Virus record (IMG/VR): IMGVR_UViG_3300025276_000173
Coordinates: 1-27,438 of that record
DNA from: a virus
DNA: 27,438 nt
Reading direction: 5' to 3' (one strand)
The notes below the pieces were generated by a model. It did no database searches. It saw only the letters and a program-made list of their open reading frames with translations, and had not been told where the DNA came from. Shown here piece by piece: positions 1,702 through 21,036 of this stretch (position 1 is the stretch's first letter; the number at the start of each line of letters is the position of its first letter). The translations under genes and the position numbers were made by a program.

Positions 1702-2433
1702 ATGAGCGAAAAACAAAATAAAACACACAGACCAAGATTAAGAGGAAATGTTTTTAAAGCCTACGAGAAATCTATAAAAACAGAAGATAGAGTTTTAGTT
1801 ATTGGAGACTTACATGAACCATTTTGTTTGGATGGTTATTTATCTTTTTGTAAAAAAGTATATGCTGAAAATAACTGTAATAAAGTTGTTTTTATTGGGG
1901 ATGTAATTGACAACCATTATTCAAGTTACCATGAATCTGATGCGGATGGATTTGGTGGAAAAACAGAACTAGAATTTGCAGTTAATAAATTAAAAAGATG
2001 GTATAAGGCTTTCCCTAATGCTTTTGTTACTTTAGGAAACCATGACAGAATTATAATCCGTAAAGCACAATCATCTAATATTCCTAGTAAATGGATTAAG
2101 GAATTTTCTGAAGTGTTAGAAACTCCAAAATGGAAATTTGTTACAGAAGTTTTTATAGATGGTGTTCGCTACGTTCACGGAGATAAAAGCGGTAAGGCAA
2201 GAATGGCTGCTAAAAGAGATATGGTTTCTACGGTATCTGGTCATTATCATACGGATTTTTATTGTGAATGGATGTTTGGTAAAACCAGAGCTATCTTTGG
2301 AATGGCAGTAGGTTGTGGAATAGATAGTAAATCTTATGCAATGGGTTATATGCAAGGTGGAAAAAAAGAAGCAATTGGTGTTGGTGTTGTAGTTGGAGGA
2401 CATACAGCGTTCAACGTTAAAATGGCTTTATAA
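1702..2433 (+). CDS. Calcineurin-like metallophosphoesterase
   Basis: This 243-residue enzyme carries the complete metallophosphoesterase signature in order: GDLH (35-38), GDVIDNH (66-72), GNHD (112-115), HGD (159-161) and GHYH (180-183). These supply the dinuclear metal ligands and catalytic His, so it should hydrolyse a phosphomonoester or phosphodiester. The substrate (nucleic acid ends, cyclic nucleotide or protein phosphate) cannot be read from the sequence. Residues 1-30 are a basic, polar leader. It is the last rightward gene before the convergent integrase, overlaps the integrase end by 6 bases, and has its own TATTATATA element. It therefore appears to be a separately expressed accessory gene of the late set. 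Confidence 0.9.
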   Translation: MSEKQNKTHRPRLRGNVFKAYEKSIKTEDRVLVIGDLHEPFCLDGYLSFCKKVYAENNCNKVVFIGDVIDNHYSSYHESDADGFGGKTELEFAVNKLKRWYKAFPNAFVTLGNHDRIIIRKAQSSNIPSKWIKEFSEVLETPKWKFVTEVFIDGVRYVHGDKSGKARMAAKRDMVSTVSGHYHTDFYCEWMFGKTRAIFGMAVGCGIDSKSYAMGYMQGGKKEAIGVGVVVGGHTAFNVKMAL

Positions 2434-3726
2434 AATAAAATCAATTTTATCAGACCAGTCATCTGGAATATCTGCATCTATTGTATGTATATACTTTTGA
2501 AGTGCTGCTCTTGTTTCATGCCCTGTTATTGGTTGCAGTACTTCAATAGCTTCTGAGTAGTTTTTATTTTCAACTGTTCTAAGGTATCTGAATAAATTTG
2601 TAATAAAAGAATGTCTAAAAGAATACAATCCATATTCTAAACCAAGATTAAATTTATTTTTAACAACTTTAAAACGTTTAGAAAAAGTATTTCTTCTGGA
2701 GTTATCAGATGATTTCCATAAAGCTGGTTCATTCTTTGGAGTAAATAAAAAGTACTCCTTATTATATAGGTGTAAATTTAGTGCTTTAATATCTTCAATA
2801 AATATACTTGGTATTCTTTTTATTTTTAACGATTTGTTTTTAGCTTGGAAATATAATAAACCTTCTTCAAGATTTACATCCTTTACTTTTAGCCTATTTA
2901 CTTCAACTGGTCTAAGAAAATTATAAGCAACAAATTTTATATATAATAAAAGGTACGGATCAGTGTACTTTAACCAATTTACAATTTCTACTAATTCAGA
3001 TTTTGTAAAAGTTCTATCTGTTTTGGCTTTTGTTTTTTCGTTGGATATATCTTTAATGAAATTTCTGTCAATTAAATTCAGCTTATTTTCCATAACTGAA
3101 AACAATGCAGACAAAGAAGATTTATAATTGTTTCTAGTTCTGGCAGATGTTTTTTTAAGTTTTTGATTTAAAAAAGATACAATAGAAGATTTTGTTACCT
3201 TATTAATATCTTTTAGTTGATGTTCAGTTCCAATAAAATCTAAAAACTGTTCTTTAGCATAATAGTAATCTTTAGAGGTTACATCTGAAACTGTAAGTTT
3301 ACAATGTTCATGCGCTAACTTTAAAGCATCCTTTATACTGCAAAACTTTTTATCTCCTTCAAAATCGAAATCAGTTTTGTTTTTTTTATCAAATGGGGAA
3401 TATCCGTTTTTTAATTTTTTCTTTAACCTTTTTTTTAAAAAATTCAAATATTCTAATCTTGAAGATTTTTTTATATACCTATTTACACCAGCTTTCACAT
3501 TTGTTTGTCTTTCTAAAATATTTGTTTTAGGATTTCTAAATGACCAACGAATGTACCAGCTTTTTTTTAATGCGTTTTTTTTTTCGGTAGGTGTTAATTC
3601 AGACCATTTATCAACATTAACTCCCCCTGTGTAGAATTTTATAACGTATTTTTCTTGCATTTTATACGGTATTTTAAGAGTGTACTTTTTAGTGTACTTT
3701 TTAGCCTTTTTATTTTTTTTACCCAT
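2428..3726 (-). CDS. int: Tyrosine recombinase (phage integrase)
   Basis: This 432-residue integrase would catalyse attP x attB recombination through a 3'-phosphotyrosine intermediate. Catalytic residues visible are R272 (FLRPVEV), a beta-hairpin Lys around 296-301 (KNKSLKIKR), R371-H372 in YSFRHS (Tyr replaces the first His of H-x-x-R), H403 (TGHETR) and nucleophile Y412 (KYIH). Residues 130-230 look like the core-binding SAM-like domain. The very basic N-terminus (K-rich, residues 1-120) resembles an AP2/arm-binding region. The first codons (KYTKKYT) coincide with a direct DNA repeat that is probably an arm-type site. The putative attP lies just upstream of the gene, and a perfect hairpin ends two bases before the start codon. 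The end is convergent with the phosphoesterase. Confidence 0.95.
   Translation of the reverse strand: MGKKNKKAKKYTKKYTLKIPYKMQEKYVIKFYTGGVNVDKWSELTPTEKKNALKKSWYIRWSFRNPKTNILERQTNVKAGVNRYIKKSSRLEYLNFLKKRLKKKLKNGYSPFDKKNKTDFDFEGDKKFCSIKDALKLAHEHCKLTVSDVTSKDYYYAKEQFLDFIGTEHQLKDINKVTKSSIVSFLNQKLKKTSARTRNNYKSSLSALFSVMENKLNLIDRNFIKDISNEKTKAKTDRTFTKSELVEIVNWLKYTDPYLLLYIKFVAYNFLRPVEVNRLKVKDVNLEEGLLYFQAKNKSLKIKRIPSIFIEDIKALNLHLYNKEYFLFTPKNEPALWKSSDNSRRNTFSKRFKVVKNKFNLGLEYGLYSFRHSFITNLFRYLRTVENKNYSEAIEVLQPITGHETRAALQKYIHTIDADIPDDWSDKIDFIL
3679..3702. repeat. Tandem 12-bp direct repeat AGTGTACTTTTT, putative integrase arm site
   Basis: Two exact copies lie head to tail, at 3679-3690 and 3691-3702, inside the first codons of int. 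The same AGTGTAC pair with the same 12-bp spacing and orientation occurs at 3920-3943, on the other side of the tRNA-like core. The arm-site role is inference. Confidence 0.55.
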
Positions 3727-7123: not shown

Positions 7124-7203
7124 TAGATTTGTCAAAAAAAAAAAAAAAATAAAAAAAAAAATTTTTAAAAATTTTTTGTACTAATGCAACATTAAACTGT
7201 TGC
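7124..7203 (+). promoter_or_regulatory. Promoter-like element, pure A/T tract and small hairpin before the primase-helicase
   Basis: TAGATTTG at 7124-7131 matches the Bacteroidota TAnnTTTG element, although no well-spaced -33 TTTG is obvious. It is followed by 44 bases of only A and T (7134-7177), including runs of 16 and 11 A. A perfect hairpin then follows, GCAACA (7186-7191) with TGTTGC (7198-7203), ending 14 bases before the start codon. The tract could be a bent or unwinding element; the hairpin may tune translation. Confidence 0.45.
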
Positions 7204-12630: not shown

Positions 12631-12879
12631 ATGGATGGAAGAAAGAACAATAAAGGTCATGTAGGGAAAGCTGGTAGAAAGTCTAAAGCTGATGAAATGC
12701 TTTTGATAGAAAGACTAAGCCAACACATTGACAAAGATGAAGCTATATTAAAGCTTAAAGAATTAATGGATGCTGGAGATTTTAAAGCTATCCAACTGTA
12801 CATGGCTTATATGTATGGTAAACCAAAAGAAACAAAAGATATTACCATTAGTTCGGAGCAACCTTTGTTTGACTTATAA
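12631..12879 (+). CDS. terS: Putative terminase small subunit
   Basis: This 82-residue basic, helical protein begins with a Gly/Lys-rich arm (DGRKNNKGHVGKAGRKSK). Helices of the type seen in small TerS or its DNA-binding domain follow (ADEMLLIERLSQHIDKDEAILKLKELMDAGDFKAIQLYMAYMYGKP). The end overlaps the TerL start by one base, the usual TerS-TerL pairing. I choose ATG 12631 over a TTG at 12625. The identification rests mainly on position and general character. Confidence 0.7.
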   Translation: MDGRKNNKGHVGKAGRKSKADEMLLIERLSQHIDKDEAILKLKELMDAGDFKAIQLYMAYMYGKPKETKDITISSEQPLFDL

Positions 12880-14045
12880 TGTTCCAAACAACAACAGCTA
12901 TAAGAAAACTTCACGCTTTAGAAAAACGTAAGAAAGTTATTCAAGGGGGTACTTCGGCTGGTAAGACTTTTGGAATACTCCCTATCTTAATAGATAGATG
13001 TATTAGAACTCCTATGCTAGAAACAAGTGTAGTGTCTGAGTCTATACCACATTTAAGAAGGGGATGTATTAGAGACTTCTTAAAGATAATGATTGCTACA
13101 AATAGGTTTAAAGATAGCCAATGGAATAGGTCATCTTTAACTTACACTTTTACAAATGGTTCTTATATAGAGTTCTTCTCAGTAGAACAACCAGATAAAT
13201 TAAGAGGTGCAAGAAGAAATGTATTGTATGTAAACGAAGCAAACAATGTTCCCTTTGAAGCATATACACAACTATCAATTAGAACTTCTGGAGATATATG
13301 GATTGACTTTAATCCAACAGCTAATTTTTGGGCGCATAAAGAAGTAGCAGGAAATGATGATGCAGACTTTATTACTTTAACCTATTTAGACAATGAAGCA
13401 TTACCAGAAACCATTGTAAAAGAAATAGAAGCTGCAAGAGATAAAGCAAAACATTCAACCTATTGGAGTAATTGGTGGCAAGTATATGGGCTTGGAAAGA
13501 TTGGTTCTTTAGATGGTGTGTGTATAACAGATTGGAAAGAGATAAACCAACTACCAGAAGAAGCAAGGCTACTATGTTATGGGATGGATTTTGGCTACCA
13601 AAATGATCCTAGCGTTTTAATAGGGTTATACAAATACAACGATGCATATATCTTCGATGAAGTATTCTATCAAAAGAAACTTCTGAACATAGACATCTCA
13701 AACCTATTGACTTCAAACAATATATCAGAAGTAATATATGCTGATTCAGCAGAACCTAAATCAATTGCAGAGCTAAAAACATACAGACACAAAATACTTC
13801 CTTGTACTAAAGGGAAGGATTCAATTGTGTATGGTATTAACCTAATCAATCAAAACAAAATCTTTGTAACAAGTAGAAGCAAGAACTTAATAAAAGAGTT
13901 GCAGTCTTATACTTGGATGAAAGATAGAGAAGGGAATACTATTAACAAACCTATTGATGCATTTAATCATTGTATTGATAGTTGTCGTTATGCAATTTCT
14001 TCACAGTTAAAGAATCCAAACGCTGGTAAATACTTTATTAGATAA
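12879..14045 (+). CDS. terL: Terminase large subunit (packaging ATPase-nuclease)
   Basis: This 388-residue terminase_3-like motor has Walker A GGTSAGKT (23-30), a Walker B-like VLYVNEAN (115-122; Asn in place of the usual Asp before Glu, as in related terminases) and a coupling motif near 141-149 (WIDFNPTAN). The C-terminal RNase H-like nuclease shows D237 (GMDFGY), D289 (YADSAEPK) and D367 in the final IDSCRYA block. It would translocate DNA into the prohead and cut it. It is complete at the usual length for the compact flavobacterial phage type, and the small gene downstream begins in its stop codon. Confidence 0.94.
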   Translation: MFQTTTAIRKLHALEKRKKVIQGGTSAGKTFGILPILIDRCIRTPMLETSVVSESIPHLRRGCIRDFLKIMIATNRFKDSQWNRSSLTYTFTNGSYIEFFSVEQPDKLRGARRNVLYVNEANNVPFEAYTQLSIRTSGDIWIDFNPTANFWAHKEVAGNDDADFITLTYLDNEALPETIVKEIEAARDKAKHSTYWSNWWQVYGLGKIGSLDGVCITDWKEINQLPEEARLLCYGMDFGYQNDPSVLIGLYKYNDAYIFDEVFYQKKLLNIDISNLLTSNNISEVIYADSAEPKSIAELKTYRHKILPCTKGKDSIVYGINLINQNKIFVTSRSKNLIKELQSYTWMKDREGNTINKPIDAFNHCIDSCRYAISSQLKNPNAGKYFIR

Positions 14046-14217: not shown

Positions 14218-14871
14218 ATGAAGATAGAAATCAACGTTCCATCAAATCTAAATGAAATAACTTTAGGACAGTATCAAAGATATTTAAAGATAGCAGAAAG
14301 CAATCCAGAAGGTACTTTCTTGGATGCAAAAATGGTTGAGATATTCTGCGGAATACCTTTATCAGATAGCTATAAATTAAAGATGGCTAGTGTTGCTGCA
14401 ATTACTGATATTATAAATTCACTTTTAGAAGCTACACCAAAACACATTCAAAGGTTTACAATTAATGAAGTTGAATATGGCTTTATTCCAGACTTAGACG
14501 ATATGAGTTTAGGGGAATATATTGACTTGGATAACAATGCTAGTAAATGGGATCAAATGCACGTTGCCATGAATGTTTTATACAGACCAATTAAAACAAG
14601 TAAGCTAGGAAAATACAATATAGAACAATACGATGTGAACAATCCAGAGGCAATGAAAGAAATGCCATTGGGGGCAGCTATTGGTAGTCTTTTTTTTTTC
14701 TACAATTTAGGAATAGAGTTGTCGAATCATACGATTCTTTATTCCAGCAATCAAGTGGAGATGCAGAACATTCAAGAGCAGCTCAATTCGGAAGTAAATG
14801 GGGTTGGTATCAATCAATTTATGCACTCGCTAACGGATGTGTTGAACGATTTGAAGATATCACTAAATTAA
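14218..14871 (+). CDS. Tail assembly chaperone-like protein (short, zero-frame product)
   Basis: This 217-residue protein starts at the ATG next to the TATTATATA element. It is mixed alpha/beta with conserved-looking blocks LGQYQRYLKIAE, DLDDMSLGEYIDLD and HVAMNVLYRPI. At codons 158-161 the gene crosses a run of ten T (14690-14699). The zero frame then continues for about 56 codons (FFFYNLGIELSN... NGVGINQFMHSLTDVLNDLKISLN), while the -1 frame is also open and protein-like to 14954. This G/GT-like dual coding points to a tail assembly chaperone, although several genes lie between it and the tape measure, unlike lambda. The assignment is inference from architecture. Confidence 0.7.
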   Translation: MKIEINVPSNLNEITLGQYQRYLKIAESNPEGTFLDAKMVEIFCGIPLSDSYKLKMASVAAITDIINSLLEATPKHIQRFTINEVEYGFIPDLDDMSLGEYIDLDNNASKWDQMHVAMNVLYRPIKTSKLGKYNIEQYDVNNPEAMKEMPLGAAIGSLFFFYNLGIELSNHTILYSSNQVEMQNIQEQLNSEVNGVGINQFMHSLTDVLNDLKISLN

Positions 14872-14954
14872 ATGTACATCAATGTTTTACTTTTTTATCA
14901 TTCACAAAAGAGAAGGCAGAAATAGAGCAACAACAAATAAAAAATAAATTCTAA
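14688..14954 (+). CDS. -1 frame extension of the tail assembly chaperone-like protein (frameshift product)
   Basis: The -1 frame is open from 14688 to a TAA at 14952-14954 and has no ATG, GTG or TTG, so it can only be read by frameshifting from the upstream gene. The slip would give a product of about 245 residues. Its C-terminus (QFGSKWGWYQSIYALANG, then CVERFEDITKLNVHQCFTFLSF and a charged helix ending IKNKF) is protein-like and resembles GT-type extensions of flavobacterial phages. It stops in a TAATG overlap with the next gene, as a genuine coding end would. A sequencing indel in the T run is the main alternative. Confidence 0.7.
   Translation, partial: SFFFLQFRNRVVESYDSLFQQSSGDAEHSRAAQFGSKWGWYQSIYALANGCVERFEDITKLNVHQCFTFLSFTKEKAEIEQQQIKNKF
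14690..14699 (+). promoter_or_regulatory. T10 slippery sequence for -1 frameshifting
   Basis: Zero-frame codons CTT TTT TTT TTC contain the heptamer T-TTT-TTT, which fits the X-XXY-YYZ rule for -1 slippage. It is located exactly where the -1 frame opens: the last -1 stop, TAG, is at 14685-14687. I did not establish a downstream pseudoknot. Confidence 0.65.
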
Positions 14955-15409
14955 TGAAGGGATTTTATCAAGTAACAGAAACAATAAAGAATCAATTGTT
15001 ATCAGATGTAAATGTAAATACAGTTACAACTGGAGACATTACTCGCATTGATTTATCAAAGCAGACAATGTACCCTTTATCACATATCATTGTAAACAAT
15101 GTTAGTAATGATGACAATGTATTGCGTTTTAGTTTATCTGTTTTAGCAATGGATGTTGTAGATGTTTCAAAAGAAGAAGTGGTTGATATTTTTATAGGGA
15201 ACAACAACGAACAAGATATATTAAATACACAGTTAGCTGTATTAAATAAGTTGGTGCAAGTTTTAAGAGGTGGAACATTATACCAAGACTTGTATCAATT
15301 GGATGGTTCTCCAAACTTTGAACCATTTTATGATCGGTTTGAGAATGAGGTAGCTGGATGGGCGTTAACTTTAGATGTATTGATACCTAATGATATTGAT
15401 ATATGTTAA
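14954..15409 (+). CDS. Tail terminator/completion-like conserved phage protein
   Basis: This 151-residue protein begins in the TAATG of the frameshift ORF. It shows VNTVTTGDITRIDLSKQTMYPLSHIIVNN, a FSLSVLAMDVVD strand, NNEQDILNTQLAVLNKLVQVLRGG and FYDRFENEVAGWALTLDVLIPN. This pattern recurs in Bacteroidota tailed phages (recollection) and has the alpha/beta look of small tail-terminator or head-tail joining proteins. The last residues are DIDIC. It overlaps the next gene by 7 bases. The precise role is inferred from position and size. Confidence 0.7.
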   Translation: MKGFYQVTETIKNQLLSDVNVNTVTTGDITRIDLSKQTMYPLSHIIVNNVSNDDNVLRFSLSVLAMDVVDVSKEEVVDIFIGNNNEQDILNTQLAVLNKLVQVLRGGTLYQDLYQLDGSPNFEPFYDRFENEVAGWALTLDVLIPNDIDIC

Positions 15410-19097: not shown

Positions 19098-19237
19098 TAG
19101 AAAATATATTAGAATTATTAAAAAATACAGATTGCAAATCAGAGATAGTGCAATTAGCAAAAGGAAAAAATAAATTTCCAGAAAGTTTTAAAGAGGTATT
19201 TACAAGACAAAAACAAGATTTAGAATGGAAAAGATAA
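19094..19237 (+). CDS. Small protein before the tape measure, unknown
   Basis: This 47-residue, helical, basic ORF starts by ATGA overlap with the large tail gene and overlaps the tape measure start by 13 bases. Its position just ahead of the tape measure resembles small chaperone-like genes, but the sequence (NILELLKNTDCKSEIVQLAKGKNKF) is not diagnostic. Confidence 0.55.
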   Translation: MIENILELLKNTDCKSEIVQLAKGKNKFPESFKEVFTRQKQDLEWKR

Positions 19238-21036
19238 TTATTGATTTAGAAGCTAAAACAGACAAAGCTATAAAGGGGATTGATAAAGTTGCTGATAGTG
19301 TAAAAGACCTTAATAAATCTGTTACAGATAGTAATGATAAAACTCAAAAATCTTTAAGAGGTGTTGAGAGTGCTTCTAAATCAGCATCAAAAGGTATTAA
19401 GGCAATTGGTACAACTTTAAAAGCCATTGGTATTGGTTTAGTTATTTCTGCTCTTGGTACTTTAAAAGAGTTATTCTCACAGAATCAAAAAGTAGTAGAT
19501 ACATTTAATATTGTATTTGAAACTGCTGCTCAAATAGTAGGTCAAGTTGCAACTGCTTTTGTAGATACTTACAATGCTTTAACACAAACAACAGATCAGT
19601 TAGATGCTCTTGGTAAGGTTGCAAGTGGGATTTTAACAATAGTATTAAGCCCATTTCAACTTGCTTTTTATGGTATTGGTTTAGCTATTGATGAAGCCAT
19701 GTTAGCTTGGGAAAAATCATTTTTAGGAAATAATGATCCAGAAACAATAAAGGCTTTAAATCTATCCATATTAGAAACTAAAAATAACATTGTAGGAATT
19801 GCAGATGGAGTTTCACAAGCTGGTTCTGATATTGTAAATAATTTTTCAGAAGCAATATTAGAGGTTTCAGAAATTGGAAAAGTTGTTGTAAAAGAATTTG
19901 GGGAAGTCAGTATATCAGCAGCAAAAGAAGCTGCTAAAGCAAATGTTGAATTACAGAAGTCTGCTGAATTAGCAGCAGCAAGACAAGGTTTATTCTTTGA
20001 AAAATTTGATAGACAAGCAGAGAAATTAAGACAAATAAGAGATGATGAAACAAAATCTATTGAAGAACGTAAAGCAGCAAATGATGCATTACTAATTAAA
20101 ATAGATTCAGCAGAATCCGCAATGTTATCACAAGCACAAATGCAATTGGCTTTAGCAGATGCAAATTTAAAAAAGGATAAAGACAATATAGAGTTCCAAA
20201 CTGCAAGAATAGAAGCGTTAAGAGAATTGGCTGGTGTTGAAGCACAGATTGAAGGTATTAGGTCAGAACAGAAATCAAATGCTTTAGCTTTAGATAGAGA
20301 ATCTTTAGAATTAACTAATTCAAAAAAAGAAGCTGATGCAGAATTAAATGCTAATAAAAATCAATTTGAAGCGGAGCAAATACAAAACGAACTTGCAAGA
20401 TTAGAAAGACAAAAAGCATTAAATGAAGAAGAATCTAATTTAGAAAAAAAACGATTAGAAGATAAAAGAGATTTATATAAAAAAGGCACTATTGCATTTC
20501 AAGAAGCACAGAATGAACTAACTGCGTATGAACAAGCAAATGGACAAAAAAGAGTTACAATAGATAAACAGATTGCAAAGGAAAAAGAAAAGACTGTATT
20601 TGAATCTTTAGGAGCAATTGCTGGTTTATTAGGTAGCAACAGCAAATTTGGAAAAGCATTAGCGGTTACACAAGCAATAAGAGATACTTATACTGGAGCG
20701 AATAAGGCTCTTGCACAAGGTGGTATTTTTGGATTTATTGGTGCTGCTGGAATTATAGCATCTGGATTGGCAAACGTTAAACAGATCACTGCATCAAAAG
20801 AACCAGCAGCACCATCATTTGCAACTGGCGGTGGCGGTGGTGGAGCTGTTTCTACTCCTACTGCACCATCATTACCTCCAGCATTTAATGTTGTTGGAGC
20901 AAGTGAAACGAATCAATTAGCAGAAGCAATTGGAGGTCAATCACAACAACCAGTAAAAGCATTTGTAGTATCTAATGATGTTACAACTGCTCAACAAATG
21001 GATAGGAATATTGTGAAGGGTGCTTCGATAGGATAA
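19225..21036 (+). CDS. Tail tape measure protein
   Basis: This 603-residue protein has tape-measure architecture. A helical N-terminus with Lys/Asp/Ser repeats is followed by hydrophobic, membrane-like helices (about 57-80, 133-156). A long coiled-coil rich in Glu, Ala, Lys and Gln spans about 230-480, and a second hydrophobic Gly/Ala segment lies near 505-528 (GGIFGFIGAAGIIASGLA). A Gly-rich linker and a Pro-rich tail close it. By the usual rule for siphophages (about 1.5 angstrom of tail per residue) the tail would be roughly 90 nm. No sheath gene is visible, consistent with a non-contractile tail. Its late position in the tail block is followed by the capsid genes. Confidence 0.85.
   Translation: MEKIIIDLEAKTDKAIKGIDKVADSVKDLNKSVTDSNDKTQKSLRGVESASKSASKGIKAIGTTLKAIGIGLVISALGTLKELFSQNQKVVDTFNIVFETAAQIVGQVATAFVDTYNALTQTTDQLDALGKVASGILTIVLSPFQLAFYGIGLAIDEAMLAWEKSFLGNNDPETIKALNLSILETKNNIVGIADGVSQAGSDIVNNFSEAILEVSEIGKVVVKEFGEVSISAAKEAAKANVELQKSAELAAARQGLFFEKFDRQAEKLRQIRDDETKSIEERKAANDALLIKIDSAESAMLSQAQMQLALADANLKKDKDNIEFQTARIEALRELAGVEAQIEGIRSEQKSNALALDRESLELTNSKKEADAELNANKNQFEAEQIQNELARLERQKALNEEESNLEKKRLEDKRDLYKKGTIAFQEAQNELTAYEQANGQKRVTIDKQIAKEKEKTVFESLGAIAGLLGSNSKFGKALAVTQAIRDTYTGANKALAQGGIFGFIGAAGIIASGLANVKQITASKEPAAPSFATGGGGGGAVSTPTAPSLPPAFNVVGASETNQLAEAIGGQSQQPVKAFVVSNDVTTAQQMDRNIVKGASIG

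Follow-up and report, generated by a model that had tools for sequence, protein, structure and literature searches.

The phage DNA analyzed here carries a gene that almost certainly undergoes programmed recoding at a long run of T residues, whether the ribosome or RNA polymerase does the recoding. The DNA is an IMG/VR virus record of 27,438 bases, and the window referred to below is the whole of it, positions 1 to 27,438. A programmed −1 change giving G-like and GT-like products is supported because the run, the two frames and their offset are strictly kept down to about 20–30% protein identity. The recoded gene pair is widespread in phages of Bacteroidota, with hundreds of relatives, and has so far been left unannotated. 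As to which machine slips, we lean toward RNA polymerase over ribosomal −1 frameshifting, judging from sequence comparison, because a floor of nine T holds in all codon phases, T TTT TTC is missing and no downstream structure is conserved. In the mechanism we propose, one gene would yield two proteins, the 217-aa zero-frame protein G and a minority product GT. The T run would program the frame change: RNA polymerase would presumably slip on nine or more T, with one U added, and the U+1 mRNAs would be translated normally, with the −1 frame being read. GT would then be the first ~160 residues of G followed by an 87-codon −1 domain, and the two proteins would most likely serve as tail assembly chaperones, like gpG/gpGT of lambda.

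The features of the locus are collected in Table 1. The zero-frame ORF runs from an ATG at 14218 to a TAA at 14869–14871 and continues for 56 codons beyond the T10 run. The −1 frame has to be entered at or after the run because the TAG shuts it just upstream. When the −1 frame of the window was searched for ATG, GTG or TTG up to its stop, none was found, and that stop (TAA, 14952–14954) shares a base with the next gene's ATG (14954–14956), giving TAATG. An earlier note on this DNA, made from its letters and ORFs, had described the T10, the start-less −1 frame and its ending in TAATG, and all of these were borne out in the window. It had also remarked that several genes separate this one from the tape measure. 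There are four between G/GT and the gene that we identify, by length and composition, as the probable tape measure. The gene directly downstream of G/GT probably encodes a tail completion protein, judged by its position. In a structure model of G, pLDDT is mostly 80–94 to residue 160 and 39–60 in the tail; the prediction is of an ordered domain to about residue 165 with a poorly ordered tail. The model of the −1 domain has a mean pLDDT of 76 and five helices, and this domain is predicted to be all-helical.

Table 1. Features of the G/GT locus and its surroundings in the window.
Feature	Position	Strand	Remarks
Terminase large subunit, upstream of G/GT	12879..14045	+	Pfam Terminase_3C E=1e-19; phrog_2
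G-like protein, zero frame	14218..14871	+	217 aa; phrog_32199 E=1.2e-18
TAG shutting the −1 frame	14685..14687	+	5 nt upstream of the run
T10 slippery run, frame junction	14690..14699	+	zero-frame codons AGT CTT TTT TTT TTC TAC
−1 frame extension ("T" domain)	14688..14954	+	start-less; motif F-G-x-K-W-G-W-Y-x-S-I-Y
KWGWYQSIYALAN region	−1 frame domain	+	would be joined to upstream G in GT
Putative GT fusion (zero frame up to the run, then −1)	14218..14954	+	inferred from conservation; remote single-ORF proteins match G + T models
Next gene downstream of G/GT	14954..15409	+	phrog_30964 E=2.2e-17
Probable tape measure protein	19225..21036	+	603 aa, coiled-coil, hydrophobic; phrog_21537 virion structural protein E=4.2e-6

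A search of viral contigs with the zero-frame protein gave 80 close relatives. In all 80, both frames are present, the run has 9, 10 or 12 T and the zero-frame protein is of full length. With remote relatives included, T9–T12 stands at the junction in every one of the 154 relatives found with this query; the −1 frame is shut within 140 nt upstream of the run in these, and the +1 frame meets a stop no more than 24 nt from it. The −1 domain was used as a second query, chosen to avoid selection for the zero frame. It found 148 loci, 147 of them with T9–T12 and the remaining one (L357) cut by a contig end. The junction tally over 321 loci, in which some contigs were matched by both searches and so are counted twice, is T9 in 194, T10 in 112, T12 in 10 and T7 in 5, with no T8. 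The relation of the zero frame to the −1 frame is identical across all of them. The T7 loci (L410, L411, L413, L414 and L415, all genome loci) form one remote clade and read CAT TTT TTT A. The isolate Nonlabens phage P12024L, at ~30% identity, shares the −1 domain and has T9 at the junction, and searches of Bacteroidota genomes brought up prophage-like copies, one of them with T9 in a 3.91-Mb chromosomal contig. The comparison with relatives for a conserved slippery run, suggested as a check in the earlier note, thus finds T9–T12 in 316 of 321 loci, and this strict conservation of run, frames and offset supports the overlapping G/GT-type products proposed there. Elsewhere in the coding DNA of the relatives, sense-strand runs of nine or more T number 6 in 494 kb, all in one lineage, against 154 of 154 at the junction. 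L184 (at about 1361) and five kin have a second T9 in a small gene that precedes the terminase and is probably the small terminase gene; this T9 is probably incidental, no other frame being open there.

Several explanations other than recoding have been weighed against this record. Homopolymers are error-prone, and the junction might reflect a mistake in sequencing or assembly, or else a disrupted gene. We find that scarcely credible, since independent assemblies and genome sequences show the same junction at 321 loci, and run lengths of 9, 10 and 12 are always phased to keep the −1 offset; assembly error is ruled out by conservation of the junction. Long T runs also mutate easily, and replication slippage could make the run a phase-variable on/off switch for GT. 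This is only a little less improbable, given that no relative has a run length putting G and T in-frame or at +1. Very unlikely too, if a shade less so than the switch, is that the −1 ORF is a gene in its own right, started separately by reinitiation or coupling. It is annotated this way in P12024L, where there is an ATG within the −1 frame and two ORFs (gp40 and gp41) are marked. Against a separate gene, the −1 frame is without ATG, GTG or TTG in the window and 20 other relatives, the first start codon in most other relatives lies at least 178 nt beyond the run, and conservation of the −1 protein starts right at the run.

That both frames after the T10 make credible protein, as the earlier note had proposed, agrees with codon resampling, codon-position diversity and the relatives. 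In the resampling, synonymous codons were redrawn with one protein fixed, and the openness of the other frame was scored. For the window, 0.01% of trials (0.0001) left the −1 frame without a stop when the zero-frame protein was kept constant. In the converse test, with the −1 protein kept constant, 1.7% of trials (0.017) left the zero frame open for the window, and no more than 0.7% did so for remote relatives whose tail is full-length. Chance is therefore a poor account of the two open frames. Nucleotide diversity was tabulated by zero-frame codon position in 30 dereplicated close relatives. Upstream of the run, it is 0.16/0.10/0.40 at positions 1/2/3, which is ordinary zero-frame coding. Within the overlap, it is 0.12/0.18/0.20, with every position damped, and past the zero-frame stop it is 0.06/0.34/0.14, which is ordinary −1 coding. 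Conservation of the −1 protein sets in at the T run itself. The zero-frame tail after the run has 53–61 codons in most relatives and up to ~80, and it is short in a few cases: 6 codons in L126 (the same contig as L222), ~15 in L157 and ~24 in P12024L. A long tail is common and seems dispensable in some lineages. The dual-coded zone, which the earlier note had called unusually long, does have about 56 codons; that length is usual among the relatives, and it is not essential. Of the two products encoded in the overlap, the −1 domain is the strongly conserved one: a helical fold is predicted for it, whereas the zero-frame tail is short in some lineages and has little predicted order.

The case for RNA polymerase begins with the run itself. 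Outside the T7 clade, there is a floor of nine T whatever the codon phase. The run may be built as GCT/GGT/ACT/TAT TTT TTT followed by TTG or TTA, as GTT/CTT/ATT TTT TTT followed by a T-initial codon, or as TTT TTT TTT followed by a C-initial codon, and a T lost on one flank is compensated on the other. When right flanks were shuffled against left flanks, ignoring kinship between lineages, only 2 of 100,000 trials had every run at nine T or longer when 33 lineages below 60% identity were used (P=2e-5), and P was 2.7e-4 with 15 lineages below 50% identity; six GCT-type lineages in this test may be a single clade, which would weaken both of these kinship-blind P values. Further, TTC as the second Phe codon, leaving T TTT TTC as the only site, was never found in the 321 loci. 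Where Tyr follows, as it does in most relatives, that substitution changes neither protein; TTC makes up 51% of Phe codons in the remote group; and U_UUU_UUC is an efficient ribosomal frameshift motif in E. coli (PMC4066793). If a ribosomal heptamer alone were selected, the lack of T TTT TTC and, in the main clade, of T7 and T8 would be unexpected. Downstream of the run, RNAalifold found no consensus pairs in the alignments, and folding has a mean z of about −0.3 for 45 T9–T12 loci and 0.0 for 5 T7 loci. A hairpin seen downstream in single folds of near relatives (z −1.7 in the window) was ruled out, there being no consensus pairs and a mean z near zero. Base composition is not the cause of the T9, because T9 is also found in two remote loci of 52% and 57% G+C. 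Nine A or T are enough for efficient slippage by bacterial RNA polymerase (PMC1088944; PMC5009743), and transcriptional slippage is described at Tn with n>8 (PMC3711429); this ~9 T threshold comes from published bacterial cases and may not be that of the Bacteroidota RNA polymerase. The conserved unit is a homopolymer of at least nine T, and this points to RNA polymerase slippage no less than to the ribosome.

The same two products could also be made by classical ribosomal −1 frameshifting on the in-phase U_UUU_UUU, working without a strong stimulator, and we regard this as a real possibility, if a somewhat doubtful one. Lambda-type G/GT shifts are ribosomal, and the −1 offset is common to them and to this gene. 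The in-phase T_TTT_TTT heptamer is present in all 321 loci, being contained within every T9 run, and the remote clade keeps T7 only, which points to the ribosome there. In E. coli, U_UU.U_UU.U shifts at more than 0.1% without a stimulator (PMC4066793). A ribosomal shift would nevertheless leave unexplained why the main clade has no runs of 7 or 8 T, why a lost T is compensated on the other flank and why T TTT TTC is never the sole site, and it would have to do without a conserved downstream structure, which is a common stimulator though not an obligatory one. A more far-reaching proposal would be that a large set of Bacteroidota phages makes G/GT by polymerase slippage at T9–T12 while the related T7 clade is still ribosomal, so that the recoding machine has changed within one gene; to this proposal as a whole we give an even chance. 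With its in-phase heptamer and no extra T, the T7 clade offers a natural ribosome-versus-polymerase comparison.

Gene order in P12024L is the same as in the window, terminase and then G/GT (gp39-gp40-gp41). Its gp40 and gp41 (JQ823123.1 23946-24640; L082:6001-6695) are annotated as hypothetical proteins and are the two frames of this gene. Among more distant matches, six viral proteins of 226–267 aa were found by both the G search and the −1 domain search. L395, L422, L424 and L426 have a −1-like domain in a single long ORF (182–258 aa) with no T run of seven or more; they are candidates for shift-free GT proteins. The remote single-ORF matches are weak, with E about 1e-4 to 1e-9. Together, the six proteins and these ORFs suggest that the fused GT protein does exist and that certain lineages make it from a single frame. 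Continuous-frame relatives without a slippery run, which the earlier note would have held against a frameshift, thus turn up only at very great distance, and there they speak for the fused protein. In L423:1-420, the −1 domain is present and T9 absent, and the junction may lie at GGTTTTTC.

The pair likely works like G/GT and likely belongs with the G/GT type. There are two ORFs overlapping at −1 with the second start-less, and the slippery junction is conserved (T9–T12 in 316 and T7 in 5 of 321 loci). The gene does not lie between the major tail protein and the tape measure; a terminase precedes it in the window and in P12024L. The position between those two genes is usual for G/GT and not obligatory. 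No family scored above cut-off in Pfam and NCBIfam searches, and a PDB fold search with the zero-frame model gave no match. In the BFVD, the zero-frame model matched many uncharacterized viral proteins and, weakly, A0A8S5V8Z8, "Tail assembly chaperone protein" (E=0.018, TM 0.40). Four of 20 members also match phrog_166, "tail protein", weakly, with a best E of 0.005. The "tail chaperone-like" label of the earlier note therefore stands as to G/GT anatomy and one weak fold match, which together suggest the role, and finds no family match behind it. In PHROGs, the zero-frame protein (phrog_32199) and the P12024-type −1 protein (phrog_38404) are filed separately, with unknown function.

Lambda gpG/gpGT and HK97-type pairs resemble this one in a shared N-terminal domain, a longer product that passes into the −1 frame and a place in the structural module. 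Unlike lambda, where the shift is at GGGAAAG, the site here is T9–T12, the dual-coded zone is ~54–61 codons, the gene comes just after the terminase and four genes before the probable tape measure, and the sequence matches none of the known chaperone families. In Shigella mxiE, likewise, addition of a U joins two overlapping ORFs, at a stretch of about nine T (PMC1088944; PMC3711429); mxiE is a bacterial regulator with demonstrated slippage, whereas here slippage is proposed for a phage tail gene. Thermus dnaX and IS elements, which use transcriptional realignment, share a conserved homopolymer of ~9 or more and need no RNA structure, but their runs are of A, and dnaX slippage leads to a shorter product.

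If RNA polymerase is indeed the slipping enzyme, this would be a widespread phage family with transcriptional slippage in a morphogenesis step where stoichiometry is critical, and a switch between ribosomal and transcriptional recoding would be testable inside one gene family. We found no report of transcriptional slippage for tail chaperones in the literature searched. Under the ribosomal reading too, an unannotated G/GT pair has been found in hundreds of Bacteroidota phages, and the split annotations of P12024L gp40/gp41 and of phrog_32199 and phrog_38404 are corrected. The conserved T9 rule can be used to find such genes. The window has other homopolymers as well. An integrase-like gene at 2428-3726 (minus strand) has a sense-strand A10, which is T10 on the plus strand at 3575-3584, and several A8 runs; these could be a further place of slippage. 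At 7134-7161, runs of A16 and A11, probably intergenic, lie directly upstream of a 799-aa replication-type ORF.
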